From: Prosopocoilus inquinatus | Taxonomy: Eukaryota; Arthropoda; Insecta; Coleoptera; Lucanidae | Assembly (NCBI GenBank): GCA_036172665.1 | Contig: CM069873.1 | Coordinates: 39,583,501 to 39,647,500, forward strand | Length of the DNA stretch: 64,000 bases | Direction: 5' to 3' | Shown here: positions 4,588 through 64,000 of the stretch, piece after piece | How positions within the stretch are numbered: position 1 is the stretch's first letter | Layout: every line of letters starts with the position of its first letter | Made by a program: the position numbers and the translations under genes | The notes under the pieces: generated by a model | What the model was told of the DNA's origin: nothing | Seen by the model: only the letters and a program-made list of their open reading frames with translations | Databases searched by the model: none

Positions 4588-4707
4588 ATAAAATATTCAG
4601 TTTGTCATTTTTGACAACCCGCTTGTTCAAGGTCAAATAGCCTTTGTCAAGTGTCAAAACCATATGATGGCAGTAACTGTGTCCTTAGACAGAGATCGAG
4701 TGCCTTA

Positions 4708-23927: not shown

Positions 23928-26900
23928 CTGCCCCCTTCTTAAAAGCGTTTCGGCTCGAAATGTTCCTGCTGATAGTCTTGAAGGAGGATGTCGGAATCTA
24001 CATGCTGACCCATTCCTGCAACTTCTCGTCTGGAAGAAGTAGCAGTCCACAATATTGCTGTTGCTGACTGTTGCCTATGGGTGGTGGCTGCAGACTAGGA
24101 CTTCAATTCCCGTTCTGTGGAAGATGACTTCCATCATGCTTCGAATTACTCTCCAGTCTAGTCCTTCCAATCCGCAGCCCAATTTGGGGATGGCTAACTT
24201 CATCTGGTGGTTCTCTACTAGCTGTCTCCTCAGGCTATATAGGGCTCTCCACATACTTTGATAGTCAGGTTTACCGCTTGATGTCTTCTTAGTGACTAAA
24301 TAATGCACGTGGCGCCTCCGATCTGCCGTCAAATCGATGATCTGCAGACTCTTGCCTACCACGGGATGCTGTCTTCGGAGCTCCTCGATTTGGCCAAATT
24401 TCTTGCTAAACACCTGAGCGATTCGTTTGGACATTTTCAGGTCTTCTGCTACCCAGTGGGCCAGACTGTACTCCAGTGGCACTTTAAAGAGATCTTGTTG
24501 CTTCTCCGTGGTCACTCCAAACCGTGCCTTGCTTCCATCGGCGTGATGAGACATGAAGCTTTCGAAGTTCACTTCGGAAACTTGTGCCCTTTGTACTGTC
24601 CCTTCATCTGCTTCTCCATGGTAAGGGGCTATCCGGTTGAAGTGGATTACTTTGGGTTTGCCATGGGGTCCCTCTTGAAGCGGTAAACGACGCCGTTGAT
24701 CCATTTCATCACTTTGTAAGGACCTTCCCAAGAGGTCTGCAGCTTTGGGGACAGGCCTCGACGTCTTTGGGGGTTATAAAGCCAGACCAGTGCTCCAGGT
24801 TGGTATCCCCCGTGTTGAGCGTTGATGTCATAGATAGTGCTCCTTCATCCGATCGCTGGCCGTCTGTATATTGTGACGCACATGGTTGTTGATTTCGTCC
24901 ATTTTCCTGCGTAATTTGCTCACGAAATCTTCGTCGGTAGAGACTTCGCCAGGCTTCACACCAAACTTCAGGTCGCAGGGCAGTCTCGGCTCTGGCCCGA
25001 ATACCACTTTCGCTGGAGTCTCCCCTGTTGTCTCGTGAACGGACGAGCGGTATGCCATTAGAAACAGGGGAATGTACGTCTCCCAGTCCCTCTGATGATT
25101 GGAAGCGACCTTGGACAAATGTCGGTTGATGGTTCTGTTCAACCTTTCCAACATTCCGTCCGACTGTGGGTGGAGTGCAGTTGTTCTAGTTTTTCGTACG
25201 CCGAGCAGAATACACACGTTCTTGAACAAGGCCGATTCAAAGTTCCTTCCTTGGTCTGAATGCAGTTCCACAGGTGCACCATACCGTCTGATCCATTCCC
25301 TGACAAGGACTTCCGTAATAGTGACTGCCTCTTGGTTAGGTAGGGCGTAAGCTTCAACCCACTTGCTAAAGTAGTCCATTACCACGACGATGTACTTGTT
25401 TCCACCATTCGTTTCCGGGAATGGGTCGGCTACATCGATAGCAACTCTCTCAAAAGGACTTCCAACGTTGTACTGTCTCATGGGAGCCTAGCCCCGCCTG
25501 TGGGGACCTCTACTGGCTGCGCAGACTGCTCACTTTCTGCACCAATCCTTCACGTCTTCCTTGCAGTTCACCCAGTAAAATCTTTCGGGCACCTTCTCCA
25601 TAGTCTTCTTAACTCACAGATGCCCTCCCGAAGTTCCATCGTGAAGTTCCCTTAGAACTTCTGGCGCCCAATTCTTGGGGATTAGTAACTGTGTCTTCAG
25701 TTCCATGCCTTCCTGATTCCCTACGCTTCGTCTCAGAAGATCACGATCCAACACTATGGAGTCCCACTGCGCCCAGTATGATTTTACGGACGGTCCACAT
25801 GGTGCTACCTCTTCCCAGGTAGGCCTCGCGTCCCTGCTTTTCCACTCTAGCACTAATTTCAAATCCGGGTCGTTCTCCTGGTCTGTTCGCAGTTCTTCGC
25901 CTTGCCATTTGTTGTCAACTATGGCTGTCCTCGCAGTCATGGCTATTTTCTCGTCCAAACGACTACAGTGCTTACAGTCTTCGGCAGAGGGTCTTCTCGA
26001 CAAAGCATCGGCATTTCGATGGCTAGTTCCTGCCCGATGCTGAATTTCAAAATCGTACTCCTGAAGTCGTTCGATCCATCGTACAACTTGCCCTTCTGTG
26101 TTCTTGAAACGGAGAAGCCATTTTAGAGCGGGATGGTCGATCCTCAGGAGGAAGCGTCTATCATACAAATACTTGTAGAAATGTTCTATATAAATGTTGC
26201 TACGGCAGCTAGCAATTCCCTTCTTGTGACGCAATAGTTTCGTTCTGGCTTTGATAGGACTTTACTGAAGTAGCCGATCACCTTCTCTTGCCCCTTTTGT
26301 ATCTGGGAGATTACGCCACCGATCCCAACGTTGCTAGCATCTGTGTCCACGACGAACTTGCCTTCCGGGAGTGGATAACTCAGAATAAGAGCACTAATCA
26401 AGTACTGCTTTAGTAGTTCAAAACCAGTTTGACACTGTTGGTCCCATTCAAATGGACGACCTTCTTCAGTGAGTTTTGTCAACGGCAAATAAAGGAACGC
26501 AGCGCCGATAGTAAGTGCACAGGCCAAGGAAACTCCTTATTTGGTGTTTATTTCTGGGAGTTGGCCAGTCTTTTACCACCCGAATCTTCACAGGGTCCAC
26601 GGCGATTCAATTTCCATTAACAATGTGCCCCAGGTAATTCACTTCCTTCTGGAACAGGTGACACTTCTTGAGGCTAAGCTTTAGTCCAGCTCCGCGAAGC
26701 CGCTGGAGCACTTCTTCCAGGTTCCTCAGGTGGTCGTCGAACGTCTTTCCCACGACAATTATGTCATCAAGGTACACCATGTCCATTGTCCAGGACACAC
26801 CTTTCAGAACCGTCTCCATTAACCTCTCGAATGTCGCTGGGGCATTATATAACACGAATGGCATCACTGTGAACTGCCAAAGACCCATACCAATGGAAAA

Positions 26901-36401: not shown

Positions 36402-39400
36402 TTATGGCGTCCATTTTTCGTAATAAGGAGCTAAACGCGAAATGTGAACTGTCTCTCGTTTGGCCTTTTTGCCTTTTCCCGATTCTATAACGTAATTTAA
36501 GTTATTTCGTTTTTCAACTATCGTATATGGGCCAAAATATTTTGGTTGTAACTTATCGCTCTTTCCTACTTGTCTGATGAACATTTTTAATTTTACCTTA
36601 TCTCCTACTTCAAAACTCGCATTACGATGTTTTTCGTCATATCGTGTTTTATCAATTTTTTGTTGTTTAATAATATTATTACGAGCTTCTTCTCTTAACT
36701 TTATAATTGCTTTTTGATTACGCAATGCAAAATCAGTTGTCATTAATTGATTTATTTGAGCATCAGACGGTAAAACAGGTTCTCTGCCATAAACTAAAGA
36801 GAAAGGGCTACATTTGATAGTTTCCTGACGAGTGGTATTATACGCAAATACGCAATGAGGAAGGAAGACATCCCAATCCTTTTGAGACGTGGAACAATAT
36901 TTACTCAACATGTCTGCCAACGTTTTGTTTAGCCGTTCGGTGAGTCCGTTGGTAGAGGGTTTGTAAGCTGTAGTAAAACTACTCCCTGTGCCTAGCAACC
37001 TTAATAACTCTGTGACGAGACGTGACATGAAGACAGCTCCCCTGTCGCTGAGTAACTTTTTTGGTGAACCATGTCGACAAATGATCTGCTGCATGATAAA
37101 TTTTGCAACAGCTTCTGCTTTACCATTAGGAAGGGCTTTGGCCTCCGCCCACCTAGTCGCATAATCTGTCGCCACAACGATAAATGTACAACCAGAATTG
37201 CTTTTTCGAAAAGGGGCTAGAAGATCTATACCAACCATTTCGAAAGGATTTCCTACTTCAATCGGATTTAATAATCCTGCAGGTTTTTGATTTAACCCTT
37301 TACGCATTTGGCAATCAGGACATCCCTTAATATATTTTTCTACATCGCGCTTCATACCTTCCCAAAAGTATTTTTTTCTAATTTTGTCTAATGTTCGAGA
37401 AATTCCTAAATGTCCGCTAATAGGTTCATCGTGATTATTATATAAAATTTCTGCGCGTATATCTGCTGGTATTACTAATAATTTCGTTTCTGTGTTTGGT
37501 TGAATTTTATATAAAATGCCGTTTATAATTTCAAAATTTTTAGCTGCCCTTTGTAAAGCCGGTCCACCGAATTGTTCATCGTTAATAGCTGCAATAATCT
37601 CTTGTATTCGTGCATCCTTAGATTGTAAGTTGATTAATTCCTTTGTTGAAATTAAAAAAGATGGAACCTCTAAAGCTTTAGATTGATCGAATGTAGTTGC
37701 CTCCGTACAGGGATATCTAGAAAGAGCATCTGCATCCTTATTTGCGGATCCTTTTTTATGAAAAATTTTATACGAATATTCCATTAATTTGAGTGCCCAT
37801 CGAACTAACCTGCTACCGGGAGTTTTTAATGATTGAAGCCAGCAAAGAGAATGGTGATCAGTTACTATTATGAAATTTTTTAAGCCCCAAAGATACGATC
37901 TGAAGTACTCAACTGCCCAAACTGCAGCCAAACATTCTAATTCACTTATTGTATAATTTTTCTCATACGGAGTTAGAGTGCGAGAAATATAAGACAAAGG
38001 ATGAAGTTTACCAGATATATGATCTCTTTGAAGTAGAACAGCTCCAATACCCACACCACTAGCATCTACGTGTAATTCTGTATCCGCCAATGGATTGAAA
38101 TGATGTAAAAGAGGTGGACTTGCAAGCTTAGATTTCAGTATATTAAATGCAGTTTCTTGAGATCTTTCCCAGATGAAATTCGACTTGGATCCGATAATAT
38201 TATAAAGAGGTTTAGCTATAATTGAGAAACCAGGAATGAATCTTCTGTAGTAATTGCATAAACCTAAGAAACTCTGCACATCTTTAACCTTTTTTGGAGT
38301 TGGAAAAGAAATTACCGCCTCAACTTTTCGATTGTCTGGTTGAATACCATTACCAGAGATGTTAAATCCTAGAATATGTATGTTTTTATAAGCGTACTTA
38401 CATTTAACAGGTTTTAGAGTTAGACCTGCATTTCTGATGCATTGGAAAACGTTATTTAATCGATCTAAATGTTCATCAAAAGTTTTACTTACTACTATTA
38501 TATCATCTAAATAAATAGCGACCTCTTTCCATTTTAGATCTTTAAAAACTGTATCCGTTAATCTCTGGAAAGTTCCCGGAGCATTACAGAGACCGAAACT
38601 AAGTCTATTAAATTCAAATAATCCGTCATTCGTTATGAACGCTGATTTATGCTTATCCTCTTCTTTAATCGCACACTGCCAATAACCGCTATTTAAATCT
38701 AAAGTTGTAAAATAACTATTTCCGCCGAGAAAATTTAAAATGTCATCGATTAGGGGCAGCGGATAAGCGAATTTGGTTGTAATTGCATTTAGTTTTCTGT
38801 AGTCGACACAGAAACGGTAGGTGTTGTCAGGTTTTTTAACTAAGACCACTGGGCTTGCAAACTGACTATCTGAAGGACGAATTATACCTAACTCCAACAT
38901 TTCTTGAATTTGATTTGAAATGATATTTCTTTCTTTAAGGCTCACTCTATAAGGACGCGATTTTACCGGTGCATTATTTCCAATGTCAATTGTGTGTTCG
39001 GTTAAATGTGTCAGTCCTAACATTGATGAATCCCATGCCATAATGTCGTTATTATTTCGAAGTAATTTACTTAACCTTTGTTTTTCTTTATCGCCCAATT
39101 CAGCACTAATATTAAAGTGTTGTTCACTTTGTACATTACAAACAAAGTTTTTGTTAAAATCAAAATTTTCTTCATTGTAGGCTATGTCATTAACAAAGTC
39201 ATCAGTTTTGTATAAATAACCCAATACTGTTCCTTTACGTAATGTGGAAGGAAAGTTTCCATAATTAAAAATATTTATTTGATGGTCACCCAGAAATTCA
39301 AAAGGATTGCTTAATTCTAATTTATTTTTATTCAGAAACTCCATTCTAGGAAAGAAAGTGTAAAATGTTACTTTCTCATTGTTATTTAAATTATCTATTG

Positions 39401-39761
39401 TAACGTGACATTTTTTATTACATTTTCGTGCAATAACTACGTCTTCACATAGTTTAATTTTAATTATTTTATTGTTCGAAATTTCATTTACAATTTCTTG
39501 ATCAGGTAATGTATTCCATAGATCAACGCTACTATTTCGTATGGTATTGGATGCTTCTGTTTCCGTTTCCTTGTTTAAATGATATATTTTGATATTAATA
39601 TTGGAATTTTTGAAGACATACAAGATCATATTTTTTATTATATCCCATTTACATCCATCTAACCCACAGGCAATTTTGTTTTTTAAGTTGCGTAACATTG
39701 TTAAATTTTTCTTTAAAAACCCTTGCGATTCCCGAGGACATTTAAAAATCTCGCGCCACAC
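36402..39761 (-). CDS. pol: El2 RT, RNase H and integrase, with the end of a macro domain at its N-terminus
   Basis: Open for 1119 codons. The first 22 or so codons overlap the preceding gene and are probably not native. Residues 28-62 read KNKIACGLDGCKWDIIKNMI..., the C-terminal part of a TARG1-like macro domain with the GLD motif. RT follows (FCVDYRKLNAI; YLDDIIVV at about residue 416), then RNase H (HVDASGVGIGAVL, about 565), integrase HHCC (HDEPISGHLG; CPDCQMRK), DDE (D in GIDLLAPF, D in LLSDRGAVF, E in NGLTERLNK) and the C-terminal module (FGPYTIVEKR). It ends APYYEKWTP. The frame is +1 relative to the protease frame. RT to integrase look intact; translation linked to protease does not. 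Confidence 0.85.
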   Translation of the reverse strand: MWREIFKCPRESQGFLKKNLTMLRNLKNKIACGLDGCKWDIIKNMILYVFKNSNINIKIYHLNKETETEASNTIRNSSVDLWNTLPDQEIVNEISNNKIIKIKLCEDVVIARKCNKKCHVTIDNLNNNEKVTFYTFFPRMEFLNKNKLELSNPFEFLGDHQINIFNYGNFPSTLRKGTVLGYLYKTDDFVNDIAYNEENFDFNKNFVCNVQSEQHFNISAELGDKEKQRLSKLLRNNNDIMAWDSSMLGLTHLTEHTIDIGNNAPVKSRPYRVSLKERNIISNQIQEMLELGIIRPSDSQFASPVVLVKKPDNTYRFCVDYRKLNAITTKFAYPLPLIDDILNFLGGNSYFTTLDLNSGYWQCAIKEEDKHKSAFITNDGLFEFNRLSFGLCNAPGTFQRLTDTVFKDLKWKEVAIYLDDIIVVSKTFDEHLDRLNNVFQCIRNAGLTLKPVKCKYAYKNIHILGFNISGNGIQPDNRKVEAVISFPTPKKVKDVQSFLGLCNYYRRFIPGFSIIAKPLYNIIGSKSNFIWERSQETAFNILKSKLASPPLLHHFNPLADTELHVDASGVGIGAVLLQRDHISGKLHPLSYISRTLTPYEKNYTISELECLAAVWAVEYFRSYLWGLKNFIIVTDHHSLCWLQSLKTPGSRLVRWALKLMEYSYKIFHKKGSANKDADALSRYPCTEATTFDQSKALEVPSFLISTKELINLQSKDARIQEIIAAINDEQFGGPALQRAAKNFEIINGILYKIQPNTETKLLVIPADIRAEILYNNHDEPISGHLGISRTLDKIRKKYFWEGMKRDVEKYIKGCPDCQMRKGLNQKPAGLLNPIEVGNPFEMVGIDLLAPFRKSNSGCTFIVVATDYATRWAEAKALPNGKAEAVAKFIMQQIICRHGSPKKLLSDRGAVFMSRLVTELLRLLGTGSSFTTAYKPSTNGLTERLNKTLADMLSKYCSTSQKDWDVFLPHCVFAYNTTRQETIKCSPFSLVYGREPVLPSDAQINQLMTTDFALRNQKAIIKLREEARNNIIKQQKIDKTRYDEKHRNASFEVGDKVKLKMFIRQVGKSDKLQPKYFGPYTIVEKRNNLNYVIESGKGKKAKRETVHISRLAPYYEKWTP

Positions 39762-40470
39762 AATGAGCTAAACTGTATTGTTTCGATATTTTAAATAAAT
39801 CTCCGCATTCTTCCTTAATATTTGAATACGTTAACGTTGATTGAGAATGCTTAACAAAATCTGAAAAACATTTTTCGTAACTAATGGAAAAATCTTCATT
39901 TTCTTTGAAAATATGTGGGGTATCCTGACCTATGCTAATACTAGAACGCTGCTGACCGTCGTTCGCTATCGTGTTACTTCCAAAGTCAACGTCCGTGTCG
40001 TTCTTAAACATTTTTATGCGGTCTTTTTTAAAAGTTACAGTGTTATTAATGAAATTTATGTTGGCCTGATTGTCCTTCAAAAAGGGATACCCTAAAATAA
40101 TATGTGGTGCTAATTTATCAACAACTAAAGCTTTTATAGGATAGCTTTCTTCGTTTATGTTAATTACGATTTCAGTTATACCTATAGGATAAACGTGATA
40201 ATTATTTATTGTATTTAGGATTAATTCCTCTTTTAAAGGAGAAATTTTATTGGCAAAACAAGGTCTTACTAAATTGTATGATGAACCAGTATCTAATATC
40301 GCTGTTATATATTTATTGTTTACTTTTCCTTTAATTTTAAGTATATTCGTATCTTTTAAAAATACAGGCGCTACGGTGGCTGGCGTTGTATTATAAAATG
40401 TCCAATTTTTACTGAGACCTTTATTAACATTTTTATTATTATTACTTAGGCCCTCGCCGTTTGATTCCAA
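39742..40470 (-). pseudogene. El2 protease and start of a macro domain
   Basis: The frame is -1 relative to gag and extends slightly upstream of the first usable start, as expected for a frameshift product. The aspartic protease active site is LDTGSSYNLV (D at residue 60), with IILGYPFL as the flap-distal motif. After a linker it enters ECGDLFKISKQYSLAHCVAR, the N-terminal strand-loop of a TARG1-like macro domain, and hits a stop at 39742-39744. Past the stop the same frame continues with MSSGIARVFKEKF, the ligand-binding loop region. About 60 codons of the domain's middle (with the catalytic Lys) are then missing before homology resumes in another frame in the next gene. The domain is therefore broken by one stop and one frame-changing deletion. 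Confidence 0.82.
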
Positions 40471-40481
40471 CAGGACAGAAT

Positions 40482-42260
40482 TTAGGGCCTCGTGAAATTC
40501 TGTCCGTTCCGGTTTCCCTGCGCTTTATTATATTGTTGATTTTTGTTAAAATATTCAGAATTTTTATTACATATCAATTCATTGTAACGTGACGGATAAT
40601 TAGCTCTTTGAAAATTGTTTTGGGTTCGATAGCAAATATTAGCAGTATGGCCACTTCGATGACATAATTGACAAATAGGTCTGCCGTTCAATGTTCTACT
40701 GCGATTTTGTAACGTGAAAGAATTATTTGGAATTCTATTTATGTTATTAGTAACTGGATCTGGTTTTTGGTTAACTCCCCCATGGTGACTCTGATAATTT
40801 TGCCTATATTGATATAAGTTGTTATAGTTCCGTTTCGTGAAATTCTGATTGTAGTTAGGATAAAATTTCTGATTTTGATTAAACTTGACCTTAGTAAGCT
40901 CTAATTTCATTTGCTTCAATTGCTCTGCAATGTCTGTTACAGTATTCTGTAAAACTTGTGAATTTTGTAGAAATTGTGAATTTTGTACCGAATGTGAGTT
41001 CTGTGACATAGAACCATTCAGTTTACTTATGGTTTTCGGCAGTATCTCTGTTTTGAAAGAGTGACCTTCTCGTTCTGTTTCAGCTACATATTCAATGAAA
41101 TTTTCAATTTCCCCGAGCGATGAAGGACGCGTTAAATTTATCATATATCTGTGATATGGTAATAACCCTGCAATAACTCGTTTAATAATGTCCGTTTCGG
41201 CCATATTTGGGTTAACCTCGTAACATAAGTCTAAAATATCGTAGTAATATGTTATTAATTGCTCATCTGTTTGTTGTCTGCGAGAAATTAATCTAGCTTC
41301 AATATCTGTATCGTAACTCGGACCGATAAATTTGTTTTTAAATTCTTTTGTTGTCAATGTCCAGTCGGCATTTGGATGTCTTTTAACAAATTCCCGGAAC
41401 CACACTGCAGCCGAATTTCGTAAAGAATTACCAAAATAACATAATTGAAGTGTATCATCCCACGCGTTCGACTGTGCAGCTAATTTATAGTTTTTTAAGA
41501 AAAAAATTGCGTCATCGGAGGACGGATCAAAAATAGGTGGTGGGAAATATTTCGGTTTTGTAGGAGTTCGATTTTGAAGTAACATTGATAATGTGTTATT
41601 GACTGTAGCAGGATTACTGTTTGAGAAATTATGAGATTCTTGTGATTCTAAAATAAAAGTGTCCGCTATGTGAGCATCCCTAACTGGTTTAGAACTTTTT
41701 CTAGAATTAACTTGAGGAAATCTCACAGATTCATTAATTGTTTCTGTTGGCAACTGGAATCTTGTTGATTTTGGAATGGCACCGGTTTTTTTGATATTAG
41801 AATTTGGGGTAATTTCTGAGCCAACCACCTCGTCATAAGAGTTATCATTTGTCATACGAACTGACTCGAACATTTTTGATGAATTATTATCTCGGTCAAA
41901 AGCAATTTCGGGGGGTAGTACACTGTTAATAGAGAAACTTGAGGGCGGCGGCGGCGGGGGTATTTCTGAATTATCGGAAAGGCATTTAAATTTATTTATT
42001 TCTGGAGGAGTACTTTCCGGAAGAACTGTAATAGTGGTCGGTTCATTAATTGTAGTAACTATCGATGAAATTGGAGGAACCACGGGTTCTAAATATTCAC
42101 TTGCGGCAGGAACGGGTGTTTGACTAGGAGAACGCGGAATTAGCGAGCTCCTCGCGCTAGGGAAAAATACATCCTTTTCCAAATTTATCTCTATATCGTA
42201 TTTATTTTTGTCGTCTTCTTTGCTTTGTGAACGAGTCTTAGGTTTTTGTCGTTTATCCAT
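40482..42260 (-). CDS. gag: El2 Gag
   Basis: Intact at 592 codons. Residues 1-220 are low-complexity, Ser/Pro-rich and include a poly-Pro run. The Retrotrans_gag capsid domain follows (PKYFPPPIFDPSSDDAIFF, AAVWFREFVKRHPNADW, LISRRQQTDEQLITYYYDI, at about residues 235-400). A Gln/Asn-rich linker leads to one CCHC zinc knuckle, CQLCHRSGHTANIC, at about residues 530-543. It should form the particle shell and bind RNA. Pol is entered by a -1 shift just before the stop at 40482. Two AATTTTGT-type repeats in the linker (about 40955-41000) give a short NSQFLQNSQ repeat. Confidence 0.9.
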   Translation of the reverse strand: MDKRQKPKTRSQSKEDDKNKYDIEINLEKDVFFPSARSSLIPRSPSQTPVPAASEYLEPVVPPISSIVTTINEPTTITVLPESTPPEINKFKCLSDNSEIPPPPPPSSFSINSVLPPEIAFDRDNNSSKMFESVRMTNDNSYDEVVGSEITPNSNIKKTGAIPKSTRFQLPTETINESVRFPQVNSRKSSKPVRDAHIADTFILESQESHNFSNSNPATVNNTLSMLLQNRTPTKPKYFPPPIFDPSSDDAIFFLKNYKLAAQSNAWDDTLQLCYFGNSLRNSAAVWFREFVKRHPNADWTLTTKEFKNKFIGPSYDTDIEARLISRRQQTDEQLITYYYDILDLCYEVNPNMAETDIIKRVIAGLLPYHRYMINLTRPSSLGEIENFIEYVAETEREGHSFKTEILPKTISKLNGSMSQNSHSVQNSQFLQNSQVLQNTVTDIAEQLKQMKLELTKVKFNQNQKFYPNYNQNFTKRNYNNLYQYRQNYQSHHGGVNQKPDPVTNNINRIPNNSFTLQNRSRTLNGRPICQLCHRSGHTANICYRTQNNFQRANYPSRYNELICNKNSEYFNKNQQYNKAQGNRNGQNFTRP

Positions 42261-46281: not shown

Positions 46282-48927
46282 CAGTGTTGCCAACAGTTGA
46301 AAAAAGTTTTCACTAAAAGGGATGCTAGAAACCACTAAAAAATCACTAAATTTAACATAAGTATACGTTGCCTACAAGCTTGTCAAATAAATTTCATTAA
46401 AATGTATAAACTGAAACAAGTAAAAAAAATAAATATAAAAACAGTAGCATTTACTATATATTTTGCAAAAAAAAAAACAACGAAATACAATTTGTTCTTA
46501 TATACAAATAATAAAAACAACTATTATAATCATACGATATCTAACACAGACAATTCAGACTCAGTAATTCTGTATGTTTCATTTGTTTTAACTTTTTTAA
46601 GAACGTCATTAGGTATCTCAAAATTAAAACAACATTTGTTTCTTCGCTTTAAAGCTGCTCTTATTGTTAAAATGGCATTTAACATTTCAGATTCCATCCG
46701 ATTGCGAAGTTTAGTCTTAATTAAAGACATCTGACTAAAGGCTCTCTCAACTTCTGCGTTGGAATGGGGTAAAACAAGCATACTTAATGCAAACTTGGCT
46801 AAATCACAAAACGGGTTGTTTCCTAATGCATCCTTAAAATTGTTTACCTCAATCCAAAAACACTTAGTATTTGTTACCTCTTGCCACTTGTTATAAATTA
46901 TTGAATACCATTGTTTTTCTATGATATCAATAGCATTGCTATCACATCCCATAGAACGTAATAAAGGAACTATCGACTCTTTGTGAACTTTTAGTGCATT
47001 TTCAACCGAAAGCAAATTTATTTTTCTTAAAACTTCAAAGTTACTTGGAAGCCTTGCTTTTATTTGATTAATTAAAACACTTGTGAAGTTAATACACCTT
47101 TGCCGAATACCCAACAAATCAATATTAGAATTTTTATTTTTTAATTCCTTTACTTTTTCCTCAAATAAATATCCTAAGTAAGCATTTATGTCAATATAAT
47201 CATTAATATTATGCTCAAATAAATCAAATTTAGTGCCTGGAGTTGTAATTCTACCGACCAAAATATCTATTAAAAATTTTAACTCATCAAGCAATTTAGT
47301 TGGATCAGCATCTTTCGCTTCAAAAAGCTTATTGACTCTTTGTACATCAGCTAAAATTGGTTTAATGAAGATTAAAAACAATAAATTTGAATCATCATTA
47401 TACATTTGATAGAGCATTTCAGCTGAGTAAAATTTTTCAGTTGATCGAACTATTCCAAAGTGAGTTTTTAATTCTAACCATTGATCATACAATCGTTTCA
47501 CGGCAGTTTCAATGGATAGCCATCTAGTATCACATGTTCTCGTAATTTTTAAAGGCTCGTTCCCTTCATCGAGTAGCTTGTATAACTTAATATACACATT
47601 TTGCCTACTGGATGACCTGGAAAACCACTCATACGTTTCCCTCACAAGAAATTCTAGATTACGAGGTAAAGTTTCTTTTACAGCTACTGAAACTGCCAAC
47701 TGTAGTGAGTGGCAAAGACATCGAATAAGAACCAAGGAAGGAATATCATCTTTCAGTCTTTTATGAACGCCACTATTGATGCCAGTCATGACACTCGCAT
47801 TATCTGTGCCAAGACCTTTTAAATTTTTAAGAGGTAAGTTAAAAGAAAGTAACGTCTGTTTGAGGCAGGTGACTATGCCCTCAGCATTACATTCTGTTAA
47901 CTCAGGCATATCTAAAAATGTTGTCACAAATTCACTGGACTTGCCAGTATAATACATTATTACAATACCTAAGTATTTACTCACAGAAATATCAGTTGAC
48001 TCGTCTATTAATAAGCTATATGGGCTATCGGCTATATCACAAATTAGATCAGTCTTAAAATAGTCAGCTAACACATTTTTGATTATTGCACCACATTTAG
48101 TTCGATGCATTTGCAGATATTCTGAAGCTTTACCATCAAAAATTCCTTTACATAGAGTAGTTAAATGATCGATAGTTAAAATGCTGCAATGTTGAGCAAT
48201 AAAGCATGCTAGACGACATTCAGCCACTTTTGCTAGTGTAGTATCTTCCACTCGAGGGAACGGAATCACATTTTGTCTTTGAATTGAAGATGCCGCTGCT
48301 ATATGTCTCTTGGTAGATTGATGTTTTGTTAAGTCGCCTAAATGATTTCGGAGCAGAGTTCCACATAATTTGCATTTTGCAACTTCTACGTTATCAACAA
48401 GTTGCGACACAAGCCAATTCTTCAGTACTGGTGCCTTTAACCATTCTTTTCGAAACTTTTGCGTATAACGAGTGGTCATTCTAGAAATATTAACATTCAT
48501 TATTACTAATAGATTGTTGATATTTTGTAATAATTATTTTTTTAATATACTCACTGGTATTACTTACTTTTTACAGTATCGTCCACGTGCACACGCACAG
48601 CAATCAACTTGCACGACCCGCATGTGACCCGCGCAACTGCGAGCGCTCGCCAGAGAATAGAAACCAATAGAAACTAGCAATTACAGAAATAATACCAACA
48701 CAAAATTTCATAATAAGAAAAATCTAAAAACTTAAGCTGCTTGGTTTCAGTATTCATCACTTTGAACAACGTTTTCAAGAAATTCACTTACAATAATCAC
48801 TAGATTTCACGGTTTTATTTGAAGAAATCTCCAAAAAAAGCACTAAACACTAAATTTAAAAAAATATCACGAACTCAAACTTAAAACCACTAAATTTAGT
48901 GTAAAAACCACTAAGCTGGCAACACTG
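46282..48927 (-). mobile_element. Complete hAT transposon 1
   Basis: 2646 bp with ends CAGTGTTGCCAACAG and ...CTGGCAACACTG, and a perfect 8-bp duplication AACCCAGC (46274-46281 and 48928-48935). CACTAAA/CCACTAAA strings cluster inside both ends (46310-46360 and 48830-48910), typical of hAT subterminal binding repeats. It carries one intact transposase, so it could be autonomous. Confidence 0.92.
46530..48500 (-). CDS. hAT transposase 1 (BED-type zinc finger)
   Basis: 656 codons without interruption. It catalyses cut-and-paste transposition in the nucleus. An N-terminal C2H2 BED-like finger (C43, C46, H60, H66; CKLCGTLL...KHQSTKRH) should bind the element ends. The RNase H-like core has D166 in SLLIDESTD and D233 in GLGTDNASVMTG, and the insertion domain carries the CLCH string at 261-264. 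The C-terminal dimerisation region reads LPHSNAEVERAFSQMSLIKT and holds the conserved Glu. Length and layout fit the SCAND3/ZBED-like group of insect hATs. I see no broken motif. The start at 48500 is the first Met; a second Met at residue 8 is possible. Confidence 0.92.
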   Translation of the reverse strand: MNVNISRMTTRYTQKFRKEWLKAPVLKNWLVSQLVDNVEVAKCKLCGTLLRNHLGDLTKHQSTKRHIAAASSIQRQNVIPFPRVEDTTLAKVAECRLACFIAQHCSILTIDHLTTLCKGIFDGKASEYLQMHRTKCGAIIKNVLADYFKTDLICDIADSPYSLLIDESTDISVSKYLGIVIMYYTGKSSEFVTTFLDMPELTECNAEGIVTCLKQTLLSFNLPLKNLKGLGTDNASVMTGINSGVHKRLKDDIPSLVLIRCLCHSLQLAVSVAVKETLPRNLEFLVRETYEWFSRSSSRQNVYIKLYKLLDEGNEPLKITRTCDTRWLSIETAVKRLYDQWLELKTHFGIVRSTEKFYSAEMLYQMYNDDSNLLFLIFIKPILADVQRVNKLFEAKDADPTKLLDELKFLIDILVGRITTPGTKFDLFEHNINDYIDINAYLGYLFEEKVKELKNKNSNIDLLGIRQRCINFTSVLINQIKARLPSNFEVLRKINLLSVENALKVHKESIVPLLRSMGCDSNAIDIIEKQWYSIIYNKWQEVTNTKCFWIEVNNFKDALGNNPFCDLAKFALSMLVLPHSNAEVERAFSQMSLIKTKLRNRMESEMLNAILTIRAALKRRNKCCFNFEIPNDVLKKVKTNETYRITESELSVLDIV

Positions 48928-57290: not shown

Positions 57291-57294
57291 GTAT

Positions 57295-57621
57295 TGTTAC
57301 ATTTCTAGGGTTTAATTAATTTATTTAAACGAATAAAACACTCGATAAAAACTTAACCGTAATTTAATAAAGCTTAAAAACTAATTTATTTGTAATAATT
57401 TATTTTCACACTAAAAATCAAACTTCGCCGTTCGCTGTTAGAATTCGACTGACTGGTGAGTCAACTCCGGGCGATTTTATATCTACTGCTGGCGTCTGGA
57501 AGTCTCTATGCTGGAAGATTCTAGTTTGCTCGATATAGGCCCCGAACGCGTGACGGCCGATGACACATCGAAGCGGACCGACTTCTTGACGCCTTGCGCT
57601 AAGTCAGGTTGGCTCGCCACA
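57295..57621 (-). mobile_element. El3 3' LTR
   Basis: TGTTACATTTCTAGGG...GGCTCGCCACA in plus orientation. The last six sense codons and the stop of pol lie within its first 18 bases (minus-strand reading), and the PPT just before it (AAGAAGGGGGCAG) is also coding. Confidence 0.93.
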
Positions 57622-60600
57622 CTGCCCCCTTCTTAGAAACGTTTCGTCTCGAAATGTTCCTGGTGATAGTCTTGAAGGAGGGTGTCGGAATCTACATGCT
57701 GGCCCATTCTTGCAACTTCCCGCCTGGAAGAAGTAACAGTCTACGGTTTTGCTGTTGCTGACTGTTGCCTGTGGGTGGTGGCTGCAGACTAGGACTTCAA
57801 TTCCCGTTCTGTGGAAGATGACTTCCAGCATGCTTCGAATTACTCTCCAGTCTAGTCCGTCCAATCCGCAGCCCAATTTGGGGATGGCTAACTTCATCTG
57901 ATGGTTCTCTATTAGCTGTCTCCTCAGGCTATATAGGGCTCTCCACATAGTCACATAGTCAGGTTTACCGCTTGATGTCTTCTTAGTGACTAAATAATGC
58001 ACGTGGCGCCTCCGATCTGCCGTCGAATCAATGATCTGCAAGCTCTTGCCTACCACGGGATGCTGTCTTCGTAGCTCCTCGATTTGGCCAAATTTCTTCC
58101 TAAACACCTGAGCGATTCCTTTGGACATTTTCAGGTCTTCTGCTACGCAGTGGGCCAGACTGTACTCCAGTGGCACTTTAAAGAGATCTTGTTGCTTCTC
58201 CGTGGTCACTCCAAACCGTGCCTTGCTTCCTTCGGCGTGATGAGACATGAAGGTTTCGAAGTTCACTTCGGAAACTTGCGCCCTTTGTACTGTCCCTTCA
58301 TCTGCTTCTCCATGGTAAGGGGCTATCCGGTTGAAGTGGATTACTTTGCGTTTGCCATGGGGGACCTTCTTGATGCGGTAAACGACGTCGTTGATCCGTT
58401 TCATCACTTTGTAAGGACCTTCCCAAGAGGTCTGCAATTTTGGGGAGAGGCCTCGACGTCTTTGGGGGTTATAAAGCCAGACCAGTGCTCCAGGTTGGTA
58501 TCCCCCGTGTTGAGCGTTGATGACATAGTGCTCCTTCAACCGATCGCTGGCCGTCTGTATATTGTGACGCACTTGGTTGTGGATATCATCCATTTTCCTG
58601 CGTAATTTGCTCACGTAATCTTCGTCGGCAGAGACTTCGCCAGGCTTCACACCAAACTTCAGGTCGCAGGGCAGTCTCGGCTCTCGCCCGAATACCACTT
58701 TCGCGGGAGTCTCCCCTGTTGTCTCATGAACAGATGAACGGTATGCCATTAGAAACAGGGGGATGTACGTGTCCCTCTGATGATCGGAAACGACCTTGGA
58801 CAAATGTCGGTTGATGGTTCTATTGAACCTTTCCACCATTCCGTCCGACTGTGGGTGGAGTGCAGTTGTTCTAGTTTTTCGTACGCCGAGCAGAGTACAC
58901 ACGTTCTTGAACAAGGCCGATTCAAAGTTCCTTCCTTGGTCTGAATGCAGTTCCATAGGTGCACCATACCGACTGATCCATTCCCTGACAAGGACTTCCG
59001 CAATAGTGACTGCTTCTTGGTTAGGTAGGGCGTAAGCTTCAACCCACTTGCTAAAGTAGTCCATTACCACGACGATGTACTTGTTTCCACCATTCGTTTC
59101 TGGAAACGGGCCGGCTACATCGATGGCAACTCTCTCAAAAGGACTTCCAACGTTGTACTGTCTCATGGGAGCCTTACCCCGCCTGTGGGGACCGTTACTG
59201 GCTGCGCAGACTGTACACTTTCTGCACCAATCCTTCACGTCTTCCTTGCAGTTCACCCAGTAAAATCTTTCGCGCACCTTCTCCATAGTCTTCTTAACTC
59301 CCAGATGCCCTCCCGAAGTTCCATCGTGAAGTTCCCTCAGAACTTCTGGCACCCTATTCTTGGGGATCAGTAACTGTGTCTTCTGTTCCATGCCTTCCTG
59401 ATTCTCTATGCTTCGTCTCAGAAGACCACGATCCAACACTATGGAGTCCCACTGCGCCCAGTATGATTTTACGGACGGTGCACATGGTGCTACCTCTTCC
59501 CAGGTAGGCCTCGCGTCCCTGCTTTTCCATTCTAGCACTAATTTCAAATCCGGGTCGTTCTCCTGGTCTCTTCGCAGTTCTTCGCCTTGCCATTTGTCAT
59601 CAACAATGGCTGTCCTCGGAGTCGTGGCTATTTTCTCGTCCAAACGACTACAGTGCTTACAGTCTTCGGCACAGGGTCTTCTCGACAGAGCATCGGCATT
59701 TCGATGGCTAGTTCCTGCCCGATGCTGAATTTCAAAATCGTACTCCTGAAGGCGTTCGATCCATCGTGCAACTTGCCCTTCTGGGTTCTTGAAACGGAGA
59801 AGCCATTTTAGAGCGGCGTGGTCGGTCCTCAGCAGGAAGCGTCTACCATACAAGTACTTGTAGAAGTGTTCTATCGTTTTTACGACGGCTAGCAATTCCC
59901 TTCTTGTGACGCAATAGTTTCGTTCCGGCTTTGATAGGACTTTACTGAAGTAGCCGATCACCTTCTCTTGCCCCTCTTGTATCTGGGAGAGTACGCCACC
60001 AATCCCAACGTTGCTAGCATCTGTGTCCACGACGAACTTGCCTTCCGGGAGAGGATAACTCAGAATAGGAGCACTAACCAAGTACTGCTTTAGTTGTTCA
60101 AAGCCAATTTGACACTGTTGGTCCCATTCAAATGGACGACCATCTTCAGTGAGTTTTGTTAACGGCTTAGCAATGTCTGCAAATCCAGGAACGTAGCGCC
60201 GATAGTAAGTGCACAGGCCAAGGAAACTCCTTATTTGGTGTTTATTTCTGGGAGTTGGCCAGTCTTTCACCACCTGAATCTTCACAGGGTCCACGGCGAT
60301 TCCATTTCCATTAACAATGTGCCCCAGGTAATTCACTTCCTTCTGGAACAGGTGACACTTCTTGAGGCTAAGCTTTAGTCCAGCTCCGCGAAGCCGCTGG
60401 AACACTCCTTCCAGGTTCCTTAGGTGGTCGTCGAACGTCTTTCCCACGACAATTATGTCGTCAAGGTACACCATGCACGTCGTCCAGGACAGACCTTTCA
60501 GAACCGTCTCCATTAACCTCTCGAATGTCGCTGGGGCATTACATAATCCGAATGGCATCACTGTGAACTGCCACAGACCCATACCAATGGAAAACGCCGT

Positions 60601-61941
60601 CTTTTCTCGATCTTCGGGCGCCAGCTCCACTTGCCAATATCCACTCTTTAAGTCCAAAGTTGAGAAGATCTTTGAGCCGGCCAGGGTGTCCAGGGTATCA
60701 TCAATCCGTGGCAGGGGATAGCTGTCCTTCTTGGTGACATTGTTGAGTAACCGGTAGTCTACACAGAATCTGGTGGACCCATCCTTCTTCTTCACAAGCA
60801 CTACTGGTGACGCCCACGGGCTGCTTGATGGTTCTATTACATTATCCTTTTCCATCTCGCGAATAATGCGTTCCGCTTCCTCACGCTTCGCCAACGGTAA
60901 TCGCCTTGGAGCTTGACGGATAGGTCTTTCTTCTCCAGTCTCTATTTTGTGTTTCACGACATCAGTTCTTCCCTTGGATCCATTTTCTACCTCAAATACA
61001 TCTTGATAGCGGCCGATCAGATTCTTTGCTTTTGTCTTCTGGTCTGGAGTCAATTCCTGGGCTGTTGACATAACCATTTCCCATAACTTCATTGGGACTT
61101 TCGCTTCTGGCACGTTTGTTTCAAGTTGCCGGGAGATGGAGGACACCATGGTGCAGCTTCCCAAGATTGTTCCTTTCTTGATATTGACGGAGAAACAATT
61201 GACGTTCATCAGGCGGACAGGTACTTCCTTCTTCGCCGTCAACAACATTTTTCCAACGAGGACTCCTCTTCCAATCCTGTGATCATCAGTATTAGGTTCA
61301 ACCATAATGACTTGCCCATCTTGAAAAACACCGTCCAGTTTTGCGTCGACGATAACCTCAGTCCTGCTGGGTAATACAACGTCTTCAGCGAGGACTACTC
61401 GAGCGGCCACGTCCCCTCGTTGATGAAGAACCAACTCCTCATTATTGACCGCCATTACGCCACGCTTTAAGTCCAATTGGAACCCGTGGGCACACATGAC
61501 GTCCATGCCCAAAATTGCCTCGTCCTCTATATCTGCCACCAGTGCACGGTGTTTTATTGGAGTTGAACCAATGGTGATGATAACCTCTACTTCACCGTGG
61601 ACAGTTGCTGATGTTCCAGTTGCAGTTTTCAGTTTCCACTTGGTCGGCTCGGTGCGTCCAGATGACTTAATGACGTCGGGTCTTAGGATAGTCTTCGTCG
61701 CACCCGTATCCAACAACATGGTGTGAGGAATGTCATCAATGGTAATATCCACGAAGACACTGCTGGTTAACTGCCGTAGGAATATTACTTGGTTGGCTTT
61801 CGTCTTTGGGGGCCTTTGAATACGGGTCGACGTTTGCCCCTCTGCACCGACCCGGCTTAGTTTAACTGTGGCTTCCTTGGATCCTGTCTGGGCTTTGGAC
61901 ATCGCCTGCGAACATGTCCTTCCTCCTGGCAATTCCAACAA
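57604..61941 (-). CDS. pol: El3 Pol: protease, RT, RNase H, integrase, macro domain, CCCH finger
   Basis: 1445 codons, entered from gag by a -1 shift. Domains: aspartic protease (DTGATKTIL, D78); RT (FCVDYRLLNNVTKKD; YLDD at 492-495); RNase H (VDTDASNVGIGGV, about 639); integrase HHCC (HDGTSGGHLGVKK...CRKCTVC, about 870-905), DDE (AIDVAGPF about 937, HSDQGRNFE about 1000, SDGMVERFNR about 1035); C-terminal module (WEGPYKVMKRI, about 1172). A linker of about 50 residues then leads to a macro domain (about 1246-1390): DLFKVPLEYSLAHCVAEDLK, KMSKGIAQVF, HYLVTKKTSSGKPDY, KLGCGLDGLDW. It resembles TARG1/OARD1, which removes ADP-ribose from Glu/Asp through a Lys and an Asp; K1320/K1321 and D1361 occupy those places. 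A zinc finger, CYFFQAGSCKNGPACRFRH (1402-1420), follows. Pol would act in the particle and then the nucleus. The role of the macro-CCCH tail is inferred, not shown. Confidence 0.93.
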   Translation of the reverse strand: MLELPGGRTCSQAMSKAQTGSKEATVKLSRVGAEGQTSTRIQRPPKTKANQVIFLRQLTSSVFVDITIDDIPHTMLLDTGATKTILRPDVIKSSGRTEPTKWKLKTATGTSATVHGEVEVIITIGSTPIKHRALVADIEDEAILGMDVMCAHGFQLDLKRGVMAVNNEELVLHQRGDVAARVVLAEDVVLPSRTEVIVDAKLDGVFQDGQVIMVEPNTDDHRIGRGVLVGKMLLTAKKEVPVRLMNVNCFSVNIKKGTILGSCTMVSSISRQLETNVPEAKVPMKLWEMVMSTAQELTPDQKTKAKNLIGRYQDVFEVENGSKGRTDVVKHKIETGEERPIRQAPRRLPLAKREEAERIIREMEKDNVIEPSSSPWASPVVLVKKKDGSTRFCVDYRLLNNVTKKDSYPLPRIDDTLDTLAGSKIFSTLDLKSGYWQVELAPEDREKTAFSIGMGLWQFTVMPFGLCNAPATFERLMETVLKGLSWTTCMVYLDDIIVVGKTFDDHLRNLEGVFQRLRGAGLKLSLKKCHLFQKEVNYLGHIVNGNGIAVDPVKIQVVKDWPTPRNKHQIRSFLGLCTYYRRYVPGFADIAKPLTKLTEDGRPFEWDQQCQIGFEQLKQYLVSAPILSYPLPEGKFVVDTDASNVGIGGVLSQIQEGQEKVIGYFSKVLSKPERNYCVTRRELLAVVKTIEHFYKYLYGRRFLLRTDHAALKWLLRFKNPEGQVARWIERLQEYDFEIQHRAGTSHRNADALSRRPCAEDCKHCSRLDEKIATTPRTAIVDDKWQGEELRRDQENDPDLKLVLEWKSRDARPTWEEVAPCAPSVKSYWAQWDSIVLDRGLLRRSIENQEGMEQKTQLLIPKNRVPEVLRELHDGTSGGHLGVKKTMEKVRERFYWVNCKEDVKDWCRKCTVCAASNGPHRRGKAPMRQYNVGSPFERVAIDVAGPFPETNGGNKYIVVVMDYFSKWVEAYALPNQEAVTIAEVLVREWISRYGAPMELHSDQGRNFESALFKNVCTLLGVRKTRTTALHPQSDGMVERFNRTINRHLSKVVSDHQRDTYIPLFLMAYRSSVHETTGETPAKVVFGREPRLPCDLKFGVKPGEVSADEDYVSKLRRKMDDIHNQVRHNIQTASDRLKEHYVINAQHGGYQPGALVWLYNPQRRRGLSPKLQTSWEGPYKVMKRINDVVYRIKKVPHGKRKVIHFNRIAPYHGEADEGTVQRAQVSEVNFETFMSHHAEGSKARFGVTTEKQQDLFKVPLEYSLAHCVAEDLKMSKGIAQVFRKKFGQIEELRRQHPVVGKSLQIIDSTADRRRHVHYLVTKKTSSGKPDYVTMWRALYSLRRQLIENHQMKLAIPKLGCGLDGLDWRVIRSMLEVIFHRTGIEVLVCSHHPQATVSNSKTVDCYFFQAGSCKNGPACRFRHPPSRLSPGTFRDETFLRRGQCGEPT
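61808..61866 (-). promoter_or_regulatory. El3 gag-pol -1 frameshift signal
   Basis: On the minus strand the heptamer G-TTA-AAC (61860-61866) directly precedes the gag stop TAA (61857-61859). After a five-base spacer comes a stem of ten pairs (61845-61854 with 61823-61832, two of them G-T). The 12-base loop contains GGGGC, complementary to GCCCC at 61808-61814, so an H-type pseudoknot can form. Pol is in the -1 frame. GTTAAAC is a known nidoviral slip sequence. The heptamer is conserved in C2. Confidence 0.75.
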
Positions 61942-63421
61942 ACCAGCGGCCTCTTCTGCTTGAAGACCTGTTCCACAATGCGGCGAACATCCTCGGCGGT
62001 GGCATACTCCCTGGCTCGCTCCTTTATAGTAGATCCCACCTTGGCGTTAGCGGATTCTTCCTCTTCTTCCTCTTGGAAGTCCATAGCCGCTCGCACCTTG
62101 ACATGCCCTCTTGAGACTCGTCTCGCTGCTTCAAATTCCAAGGCATAAGCTAATGCGTTCTTGGACGTCTTCGGATGGGTCATTCTCAATGCCTGCTGGT
62201 TGTCTGGGTCACGGATTCCATCTATGAAGGTCTGCACCGTCAAACATTTGAGGAATTCAACAGGAGCTGTGGGATATGCCAACTGGGCCAGACGCGCAAC
62301 GTCTGCTTCGAATTCCTGAAGACTTTCTCCGGATTTCTGACAGCGATTCCTCAACTGTGCATGGTATACCTCGGTCAGATGGGCCTGTCCGTAACGCATT
62401 TCCATCCTATTCACCAGCTTGTCGAAGTCTTCTTGTTCCTCTGGCGGCATCGTCTGTAGCACATCGATAGCGTCCCCTCTCAAGGCCACAATTAACGAAG
62501 TGGCTTTTTCGCTGGCCGTCCATCTGTTTGCCTTTGCTGCTGCTTCGAACTGTTTGAAGTAGTTGGGCCAAGAAGACTTTCCATCGAACGTTGGTGGTTT
62601 TATTTTTAATTTCGAATTTTCTGCTGGTCCTTCCGCAATTCGGGTTTCATTATTATTATTTTCTAGTACTTCTACTGGTGGCTATCCCCGAACACTCGCA
62701 ACCCCGCCATGATTTGTTCCAGATTTTTGATTTTGTTATCCTGCTGGAATATTATTTCTTCCACATTTTCTTGCAGGTTTCTTGTTTCTTCCGATATTTT
62801 TACCACTAGTTTATCTTCGAGTCCTTTCGTCTGTTCTAGAAATTCACCCTTCAAATTTCCGGACTGTTCTAGAAGTTTCTCGTCGAAATTTCTGGATTGC
62901 TCTAGAAATTTCTCGTCTAAGTCTCTAGATTGTTCCAACAATTTATTTTGTAATTTGTCGAAATTTCCAGATTGTTCTAGAAGCTTCTCCTCTAAATTTC
63001 TGGATTGTTCTCTAAGCTTCTCTAAATTTCCAGACTGTTCTAGAAACTTCTCGTTCAAATTTCTGGATTGTTCTCGAAGTTCGTCCTTGAAATTTCCAGA
63101 TTGTTCTAGAAACTTCTCGTCCAAATTTCTGGATTGTTCTCGAAGTTCGTCCTTGAAATTTCCAGATTGTTCTCGAAGTTCATCCTTGAAATTTCTGGAT
63201 TGTTCTCGAAGTTCATCTTTCAAGATTTTATTAAAATCGACGGGACCAGACGAAATTTCGAAAAGGAACGTCTCTGGATCTTCACCAGCTGTCAACAAAT
63301 CGGATCGGAGACGCTGTTGAAGTGCGCCTTTCAAACCACAGGTTTCTAACTCTCGTTCTTCCAATTCTGTTTTTAATTCGGCCACTTTTAAGTCTTTCAA
63401 CAACACTTTTCTCGTAGCCAT
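61857..63421 (-). pseudogene. gag: El3 Gag, split by a one-base deletion
   Basis: Starts MATRKVLLKDLKVAELKTEL; residues 6-40 (to GLKGALQQRL) match a SAP motif, a small DNA-binding helix pair. Residues about 75-215 are an array of 11-residue repeats of the type DELREQSRNFK/EKFLEQSGNFK, a hendecad coiled coil. The first frame ends at 62672 because one base present in C2 is missing at about 62683-62684. The original frame continues past it into the capsid region (QKSGESLQEFEADVARLAQL, CLTVQTFIDGIRDPDNQQAL) and a CCHC-type knuckle CWNCQEEGHVRRRC, ending at 61857. So this copy cannot make full Gag without help. Gag forms the particle; the SAP motif may bind DNA. Confidence 0.85.
62840..63230 (-). 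repeat. 33-bp tandem repeats inside El3 gag
   Basis: About 12 copies of a 33-bp unit (for example TTTCTGGATTGTTCTCGAAG plus TTC-TC-TTGAAA variants) encode the 11-residue coiled-coil repeat. C2 has fewer units at 29050-29350, so the array changes length between copies while keeping frame. Confidence 0.85.
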
Positions 63422-63523
63422 TATATTTTTTTTTTCCTATACTGTACTTATTTAATAATCTGATTAAATTTAATTTACTTTAAATTGTTTATTTATTTGC
63501 ACAAACCCCACACCTGACACCAC

Positions 63524-63850
63524 TGTTACATTTCTAGGGTTTAATTAATTTATTTAAACGAATAAAACACTCGATAAAAACTTAACCGTAATTTAATAAA
63601 GCTTAAAAACTAATTTATTTGTAATAATTTATTTTCACACTAAAAATCTAACTTCGCCGTTCGCTGTTAGAATTCGACTGACTGGTGAGTCAACTCCGGG
63701 CGATTTTATATCTACTGCTGGCGTCTGGAAGTCTCTATGCTGGAAGATTCTAGTTTGCTCGATATAGGCCCCGAACGCGTGACGGCCGATGACACATCGA
63801 AGCGGACCGACTTCTTGACGCCTTGCGCTAAGTCAGGTTGGCTCGCCACA
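63524..63850 (-). mobile_element. El3 5' LTR with adjacent PBS
   Basis: 327 bp, one A/T difference from the 3' LTR. The PBS TGGTGTCAGGTGTGGG is read on the minus strand just left of 63524 (about 63506-63521). Confidence 0.93.
63704..63710 (-). promoter_or_regulatory. TATA box of the El3 5' LTR
   Basis: TATAAAA on the minus strand, in the middle of the 5' LTR; the same string is at 57475-57481 in the 3' LTR. Downstream on the minus strand the LTR has AATAAA-type poly(A) signals. Confidence 0.6.
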
Positions 63851-64000
63851 GTATTATGCCTGTAAAAATTGTATATCAGTTTTTTCATCATAAAAATTAA
63901 TTCTGATTTTTAAAACTGTACTATATTGCCATTATTATACTAACATATATGATAGTTTTACTTATCATAATCGTATAAATTCTTACTTTTAATTTTTTCT

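Follow-up and report, generated by a model that had tools for sequence, protein, structure and literature searches.

A TARG1-type macro domain in the Pol polyprotein of Ty3/Gypsy retrotransposons of Prosopocoilus inquinatus and its possible use against host ADP-ribosylation

Introduction

Why a retrotransposon should carry, within its own polyprotein, an enzyme of the kind that removes ADP-ribose is the question raised by El3, a young Ty3/Gypsy element in the genome of the beetle Prosopocoilus inquinatus. El3 occupies positions 57295-63850 (minus strand) of a stretch of 64,000 nucleotides, C5:39583501-39647500 of the 650-Mb genome, which is referred to here as the window. Its pol frame extends beyond integrase into a macro domain and a CCCH zinc finger. 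The macro domain is of the TARG1/OARD1 type, as judged from sequence, fold and catalytic pair, and it recurs in several Gypsy families of the same genome; in the multi-copy family to which El3 belongs (F1) there are signs of purifying selection on it. The explanation favoured here, with modest confidence, is that a captured TARG1-type hydrolase borne by Pol undoes a host ADP-ribosylation that hinders the element, acting on a target that we infer. Papers are cited by their PubMed Central (PMC) accessions.

The pol frame of El3

As proposed in an initial annotation of the window, the pol frame (57604..61941, minus strand) stays open over 1445 codons and passes without a break from integrase into the macro domain and then the finger. 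Pfam recognizes in it, in order, protease, reverse transcriptase (RT), RNase H, integrase H2C2, rve, Integrase_p58_C and zf-CCCH. The macro domain lies between the last two, at 57778..58200 (minus strand; pol residues 1248-1388, with Lys 1320 and Asp 1361), and the finger at 57682..57738 (minus strand; pol residues 1402-1420). The element is bounded by long terminal repeats (LTRs) of 327 bp, the 5′ LTR at 63524..63850 and the 3′ LTR, with TG...CA ends, at 57295..57621 (both minus strand), which differ at one of their 327 bases, and it is flanked by a GTAT target-site duplication (57291-57294 and 63851-63854). The protease-RT-RNase H-integrase order, together with the LTRs, the target-site duplication and a polypurine tract, places El3 in Ty3/Gypsy (Metaviridae). 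One base past the 5′ LTR begins TGGTGTCAGG, primer-binding-like and a candidate tRNA-Leu primer site.

The end of the frame is interwoven with the end of the element. The polypurine tract AAGAAGGGGGCAG (57622..57634, minus strand) adjoins the 3′ LTR and, as read directly across the junction, supplies the codons RRGQ of pol, and the stop codon lies 18 bases into the 3′ LTR. A single coding stretch holds the macro domain, the finger, the polypurine tract and the beginning of the LTR, and because the frame spans the polypurine tract and ends in the LTR, the macro domain and finger are internal to El3; readthrough into flanking DNA is rejected on the same grounds. The LRRGQC peptide at the tract is retained in several relatives (for example P0001, P0007, P0116 and P0118), and frames of at least 1900 amino acids run through the macro region in several other genomic copies. 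A chance or misread frame was also considered and is rejected in view of the open 1445-codon frame and the TARG1 sequence and fold matches described below.

Class, fold and catalytic residues of the macro domain

Profile searches, which the initial annotation had named as a check, give a divided result. The Pfam Macro profile scores 18.1 bits on the El3 piece, below its cut-off of 22, and reaches F1-type domains poorly (39 matches from 135 candidates in the P. inquinatus genome). The sequence match to TARG1 is clear, human TARG1 chains in the PDB matching residues 4-138 of the 198-residue piece at E 2.5e-28. An AlphaFold2 model of the piece has a mean predicted local distance difference test (pLDDT) score of 84, with ten-residue blocks ranging from 86 to 98 in the macro core and from 49 to 73 in the finger and tail. 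The top eight Foldseek matches to this model in the PDB are TARG1/C6orf130 entries, among them 4j5s_C at 1.1 Å and a target TM score of 0.96, and TARG1 ranks ahead of DarG and of the alphavirus and coronavirus macro domains. Identity is 36-37% to the human TARG1 chains in the structural alignment and 39% to a Panthera protein.

Both residues of the TARG1 catalytic pair are present in El3, where Lys 1320 and Asp 1361 correspond to Lys84 and Asp125 of TARG1. Residue 125 of the human TARG1 sequence in the PDB is Asp, written Glu125 in PMC7050489. An alignment of 130 proteins, which takes in cellular and viral relatives, shows the complete pair in 128 (P0095 has a gap, P0127 a substitution). The pair is also complete in all 50 macro domains of the second tree alignment described below, and, among 57 genomic copies, as Lys in 56/56 (one copy is gapped there) and Asp in 57/57. 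The El3 domain is therefore a TARG1/OARD1-type macro domain, by sequence, fold and catalytic pair, as first proposed; it shares these features with TARG1/OARD1/C6orf130 of the ALC1-like macrodomain class but, unlike TARG1, is fused into a retrotransposon Pol, in F1 together with a CCCH finger. Sequence and modelled structure make a strong case for assigning the Pol macro domain as a predicted ADP-ribosylhydrolase, an enzyme of the type that frees ADP-ribose from Glu/Asp esters and from phosphate ends of nucleic acids.

Relatives in beetles and copies in the genome

Relatives of the El3 domain are known from at least five named beetle species. Most of the 111 proteins found with pol residues 1240-1445 come from Aromia moschata, a longhorn beetle. 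The domain piece and a small alignment, used as further queries, brought in Molorchus minor, Gonioctena quinquepunctata and Pyrocoelia pectoralis, and another search Brassicogethes aeneus, among the best 120 of 1195 matches. The Aromia and Molorchus proteins also contain the integrase C-terminal domain; the relatives from Gonioctena, Pyrocoelia and Brassicogethes are short, and the trees place them within the element clade. Two matches labelled Erysiphe pulchra are taken as contamination. Within P. inquinatus itself at least 150 copies of the El3 domain are found at 98-100% identity (best 150 of 1463 candidates). A one-copy oddity, an outcome that would have told against the first proposal, is rejected by these many relatives and copies, as well as by the six families, plus a seventh (F6), considered below.

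Selection on the domain

Copy number alone is no proof of function, as young copies are near-identical, and a domain captured once might spread by copying while doing nothing. Selection was studied among copies that the macro domain itself had not chosen. An RT search of the genome supplied 150 copies (best 150 of 3738 candidates), from which 60 were hand-picked on contigs C1-C6, and codons 851-1445 of each were compared with El3. L137, not homologous in this region, and the short copies L153 and L116 were dropped, leaving 57, some with deletions. Codons 1216-1441 are free of stops and gaps in 48 of the 57. The neutral expectation was taken from fourfold sites, and the counts omit codons with multiple changes. 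Among variants shared by at least two copies, the ratio of nonsynonymous to synonymous change (ω) in the macro domain is 0.33 (10 nonsynonymous, 13 synonymous; p 0.0074), compared with 0.18 in the integrase core (7 and 16; p 6.5e-5), 0.26 in the integrase C-terminus (p 0.015) and 0.29 in the finger (3 and 4; p 0.099). Singletons give ω of 0.72 (macro), 0.53 (integrase core), 0.64 (integrase C-terminus) and 0.77 (finger); in the integrase core the singletons differ significantly from the shared variants (p 0.038), and in the macro domain they do not (Fisher p 0.14).

Comparisons over greater distances include El1, an older broken F1 copy at about 23.57-29.9 kb of the window, with LTRs 91% identical and a macro domain at 24078..24593 (minus strand; profile match E 6.1e-61) in which Glu replaces the catalytic Asp. 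Between El3 and El1 the dN/dS ratio (nonsynonymous over synonymous divergence) is 0.45 in the macro domain, 0.38 in RT-RNase H, 0.42 in integrase, 0.73 in the finger and tail, and 0.46 over the whole of pol. In family F6 the macro domains of L172 and L179 give 0.20 at a dS of 0.40; in family F4 the pair L178/L180 gives 0.23 on 2 changes, and F3 compared with F4 gives 0.17 with dS saturated.

A functionless passenger would find some support in the non-significant Fisher contrast of the macro domain. The open and ungapped copies, the ω of shared variants, the F6 pair L172/L179 and the conservation of the catalytic pair across families speak against it, and the selection tests make it scarcely probable. 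The expectation of non-neutral evolution, set out beforehand, was in this way borne out, although the singleton contrast did not add to it.

Other Gypsy families and the position of the domain

The P. inquinatus genome was searched with a TARG1 piece from Tribolium (best 150 of 1303 candidates), and the stretches were scanned with Pfam and other profiles. Six families combine RT or RNase H with a TARG1-like macro domain in pol, and in a seventh, F6, protease is the only such companion; the repeat families beyond F1 are about 43-51% identical to the Tribolium piece. In F1 (El3 and El1) the macro domain directly follows integrase, and it also follows integrase in F2 (L185), where the fetched stretch starts at RNase H. 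In F3 (L183) and F5 (L184) it lies between protease and RT in a single frame, and in F4 (L186, L178, L180, L181, L182 and El2) protease and macro domain stand upstream of RT, a stop interrupting the domain in L186 and none doing so in the other four L copies. The domain precedes RT in F7 (L187), with no protease match listed, and follows protease in F6 (L188), with no RT seen within the fetched stretch. A third position, added to the two of these families, is found in the contigs P0108 and P0110 of source lgn, with the domain between RNase H and integrase. RT or RNase H stands in the same frame as the domain in F1, F2, F3, F5, F7, P0108 and P0110. About 184 residues with repeated acidic EDEIPL motifs follow the macro match in L185, with no finger by Pfam.

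All three Gypsy copies examined in the window carry the domain. The third, El2 (36405-40524), belongs to F4, its pol being 97.6% identical to L186 over 703 residues. A Pfam scan without a Macro match had suggested that El2 is a macro-free Gypsy, which is wrong: the domain precedes RT and is divided between two frames, with an N-terminal part at 39745..39921 (minus strand; profile match E 4e-6) and a C-terminal part at 39462..39719 (minus strand; E 3.6e-9).

These positions bear on the idea that the macro domain serves as a reader and anchors integrase to chromatin bearing ADP-ribose, or to broken DNA, in the way that chromodomains tether integrase in chromoviruses. Its place in F1 and F2, where integrase immediately precedes it, would suit such integration targeting, which is weakened by the varied positions elsewhere, before RT and away from integrase in F3, F4, F5 and F7 and before integrase in P0108 and P0110. 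A reader would also need no catalytic Lys and Asp, yet the pair is kept in 50/50 rows, and we regard integration targeting as very improbable.

Trees and origin of the domain

Two trees were built, the first with 48 rows and the second with 50 (7 dropped, 9 added). The post-integrase elements form one clade in the first (19 rows, support 100/99) and again in the second (16 rows, 100/98), where they are separate from cellular TARG1s and F2 falls outside. Beetle host TARG1s, that of P. inquinatus among them, are a separate clade in the second tree (99/99); in the first, elements and beetle host genes join weakly (63/85). Forcing the 25 retroelement domains of the second tree into a single clade costs 15.9 log-likelihood units and is marginal by the approximately unbiased (AU) test (p 0.064), on account of which several captures of the TARG1 domain are favoured as the likelier history. 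The first tree does not reject one clade of the post-integrase elements with P0108 and P0110 (AU p 0.30), nor the union of P0108 with P0110 (0.495) or of elements with the RNA-virus domain (0.443). In a tree of RT, F3, F4/El2 and F7 form one clade (100/100), F1 stands apart (100/100), and F5 joins P0108 and P0110 (97/96, on long branches); F2 is not in this tree. RT-RNase H identity to El3 is 44-50% for F3, F4, F5, F7, P0108 and P0110.

The CCCH finger

The finger has the spacing C-x7-C-x5-C-x3-H given in the initial annotation, and zf-CCCH scores 24.1 bits on the whole protein and 27.5 bits on the piece alone, above the Pfam cut-off of 20.5. Its fold is weakly modelled, and its support consists of the profile score and the conserved ligands, all four of which are intact in 101 of 130 relatives, a total that includes cellular and truncated proteins, and which are present in 57/57, 56/57, 57/57 and 57/57 of the genomic copies. 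The finger is found in F1 only; two F1 members, P0103 and P0124, seem to be without it, and Pfam detects none in the scanned F2-F7 frames, which are partial. For these reasons the pairing of macro domain and finger is not central to the phenomenon, and the finger counts as a secondary trait of F1. A PARP13/ZAP-like antiviral protein has a CCCH array plus WWE and PARP domains; El3 has a single finger, and Pfam scans of its frame list neither a WWE nor a PARP domain.

Host ADP-ribosylation loci and known macro-domain systems

The host has a TARG1-like gene of its own at C5:3752904 (L171), with two TARG1-coding stretches close together that seem to be tandem copies or exons, and over query residues 30-139 a host TARG1-like stretch and its Tribolium counterpart share 61% identity. 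Five PARP-domain matches lie at four places in the genome. One locus we take to be PARP1-like and one tankyrase-like, from motifs read by eye in the open reading frames. The other two, C2:71727145 and C9:4463897, have PARP12/13-type transferase domains, their best solved relatives being PARP12 (E 6e-21) and PARP13/ZAP (E 1.3e-12). No fingers were seen upstream of these two by eye in the open reading frames, no profile scan having been made. The link to PARP12 and PARP13 drawn in the initial annotation has in these predicted loci a likely host counterpart, qualified by a motif residue taken up below.

Captured macro domains are known from another retroelement, as additional open reading frames in Epsilon-like endogenous retroviruses of ray-finned fishes (Basta et al. 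2009, via PMC4977317). The beetle Ty3/Gypsy domain differs in being an in-frame Pol module that occurs in several families and positions. A macro domain in Gypsy Pol was not found described in the open-licence PMC literature, searched mostly through listings. Removal of ADP-ribose from proteins is a proposed function of viral macro (X) domains (PMC9503650), and those of alphaviruses, coronaviruses and hepatitis E virus are likewise parts of viral proteins, in another class of element; the alphavirus and coronavirus domains are structurally further from the El3 model than is TARG1. The same paper surveys ADP-ribose systems in 21,191 viral proteomes, and its main text does not mention TARG1, OARD1, Gypsy or transposons; "retro" occurs in it twice, one passage concerning 2H domains of fish retroviruses. 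DarG is of the same macrodomain class as TARG1 but keeps the lysine alone of the dyad (PMC7050489).

Among the closest viral structural matches are macro domains of arthropod-associated viruses, which, by fold comparison, resemble that of El3 and belong to viruses and not to integrating elements. The best match in BFVD is VP8 of Kadipiro virus (41% identity), and the list also includes virga-like viruses of thrips and woodlouse iridescent virus. An 8.6-kb contig encodes an RNA-virus-like polyprotein of 2180 residues (P0107) with Pfam methyltransferase, helicase, RNA-dependent RNA polymerase and Macro matches; its macro domain is 46% identical to that of El3, keeps the Lys/Asp pair and groups with family F5 (96/64, second tree). 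IMG/VR gave 134 matched stretches, of which 80 loci were kept and 5 entered the trees. Such macro domains recur, in predicted structures, in unrelated arthropod-associated viruses.

Possible function of the Pol macro domain

If the favoured explanation holds, a cellular TARG1/OARD1-type ADP-ribosylhydrolase was captured and is carried as one module within Gypsy Pol; it would be made with Gag-Pol, probably freed by the element's protease, and would be present in the particle. There it may strip the ADP-ribose that host transferases put on proteins of the element, on the ends of nucleic acids or on chromatin close by, and so counter a host ADP-ribosylation that slows retrotransposition, with the F1 finger perhaps keeping the enzyme on RNA. 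The TARG1 match, the catalytic pair, the purifying selection, the several Gypsy lineages and the three positions in pol support this explanation, and the macro domains of arthropod viruses, the host PARP loci and data on Drosophila PARP-1 would be in keeping with it. Of the counter-defence by macro domain and finger suggested in the initial annotation, the eraser role has survived as the best single account and the pairing with the finger is the weaker part.

Several observations weigh against this explanation. Besides the singleton contrast of the macro domain, integrase-core singletons themselves lie below neutral (ω 0.53, p 0.0005), so that singletons are no clean neutral control, and the F6 pair L172/L173 has a dN/dS of 0.81, which with 4 changes carries little weight. 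Within F1 the macro domain is 50-63% identical (four rows compared), and RT(-RNase H) is 75-82% identical to El3; the lower conservation of the macro domain fits conflict and fits weak constraint too. In both PARP12/13-like loci the PARP-motif tyrosine seems to be replaced (open reading frames read by eye), and the two loci may be inactive. The enzyme activity, its target and a restriction by ADP-ribosylation in insects are all predictions. The effect of PARP-1 on mobile elements in Drosophila is possibly indirect, according to PMC7712786.

That effect bears on another account, in which the enzyme attacks transcriptional silencing by stripping ADP-ribose from host chromatin proteins (targets of PARP-1 or SIRT6). 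In Drosophila without PARP-1, mobile elements mainly rise: five were raised significantly and three lowered, and ten others showed a tendency to rise, nine belonging to the Gypsy superfamily (PMC7712786); in mammals SIRT6 mono-ADP-ribosylates KAP1 and silences L1 (PMC4695847). The N-terminal gag frame of El3 (62672..63421, minus strand) encodes a SAP domain (Pfam PF02037), which may bring particles to chromatin. Such an attack would need Pol products to act in trans on chromatin and, with the effect in Drosophila perhaps indirect, is rather improbable.

Closer to the favoured explanation is housekeeping of the element's own ends, by which the hydrolase clears ADP-ribose from the 5′ or 3′ ends of element RNA or complementary DNA, or from integrase or RT, with no dedicated defence to overcome. 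TARG1 removes ADP-ribose from nucleic-acid phosphate ends, and transposon-derived RNAs have been raised as possible targets (PMC7050489); the sharing of a frame with RT or RNase H would also suit this role. In practice it overlaps with removal of a hindering host modification, and we know of no requirement for such a hydrolase in most Gypsy elements. We regard it as unlikely.

To our knowledge ADP-ribosylation as a restriction of retrotransposons is largely unproven, and the retention of a hydrolase in Pol by several Gypsy families of a single genome suggests that it exists. Since several families carry the eraser, there are hints that ADP-ribose tagging may be used against jumping genes. If so, the virus-host conflict over ADP-ribose, known from RNA viruses and phages, would also take in genome-resident retrotransposons, and the Gypsy Pol domains would provide a large natural set of TARG1 variants. 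A broader proposal is that insect Ty3/Gypsy elements have repeatedly acquired TARG1, or moved it within Pol, in parallel with unrelated arthropod viruses, in response to an undescribed ADP-ribosylation brake that is perhaps PARP12/13-like; this we hold as tentative, somewhat short of an even chance.

Other features of El3 and the window

In the El3 copy gag consists of two frames, the second of which (61857..62489, minus strand) encodes a CCHC zinc knuckle (Pfam PF00098). The gag coding region at 62831-63228 has internal repeats with units about 75-88% identical, at which a weak apolipophorin-like Pfam match lies below its cut-off. Elsewhere in the window, 3371-4589 holds large inverted repeats with arms of 509 and 398 nt that are 99-100% complementary, and 46530-48500 (minus strand) a 656-residue frame with the C-terminal region of a hAT transposase.

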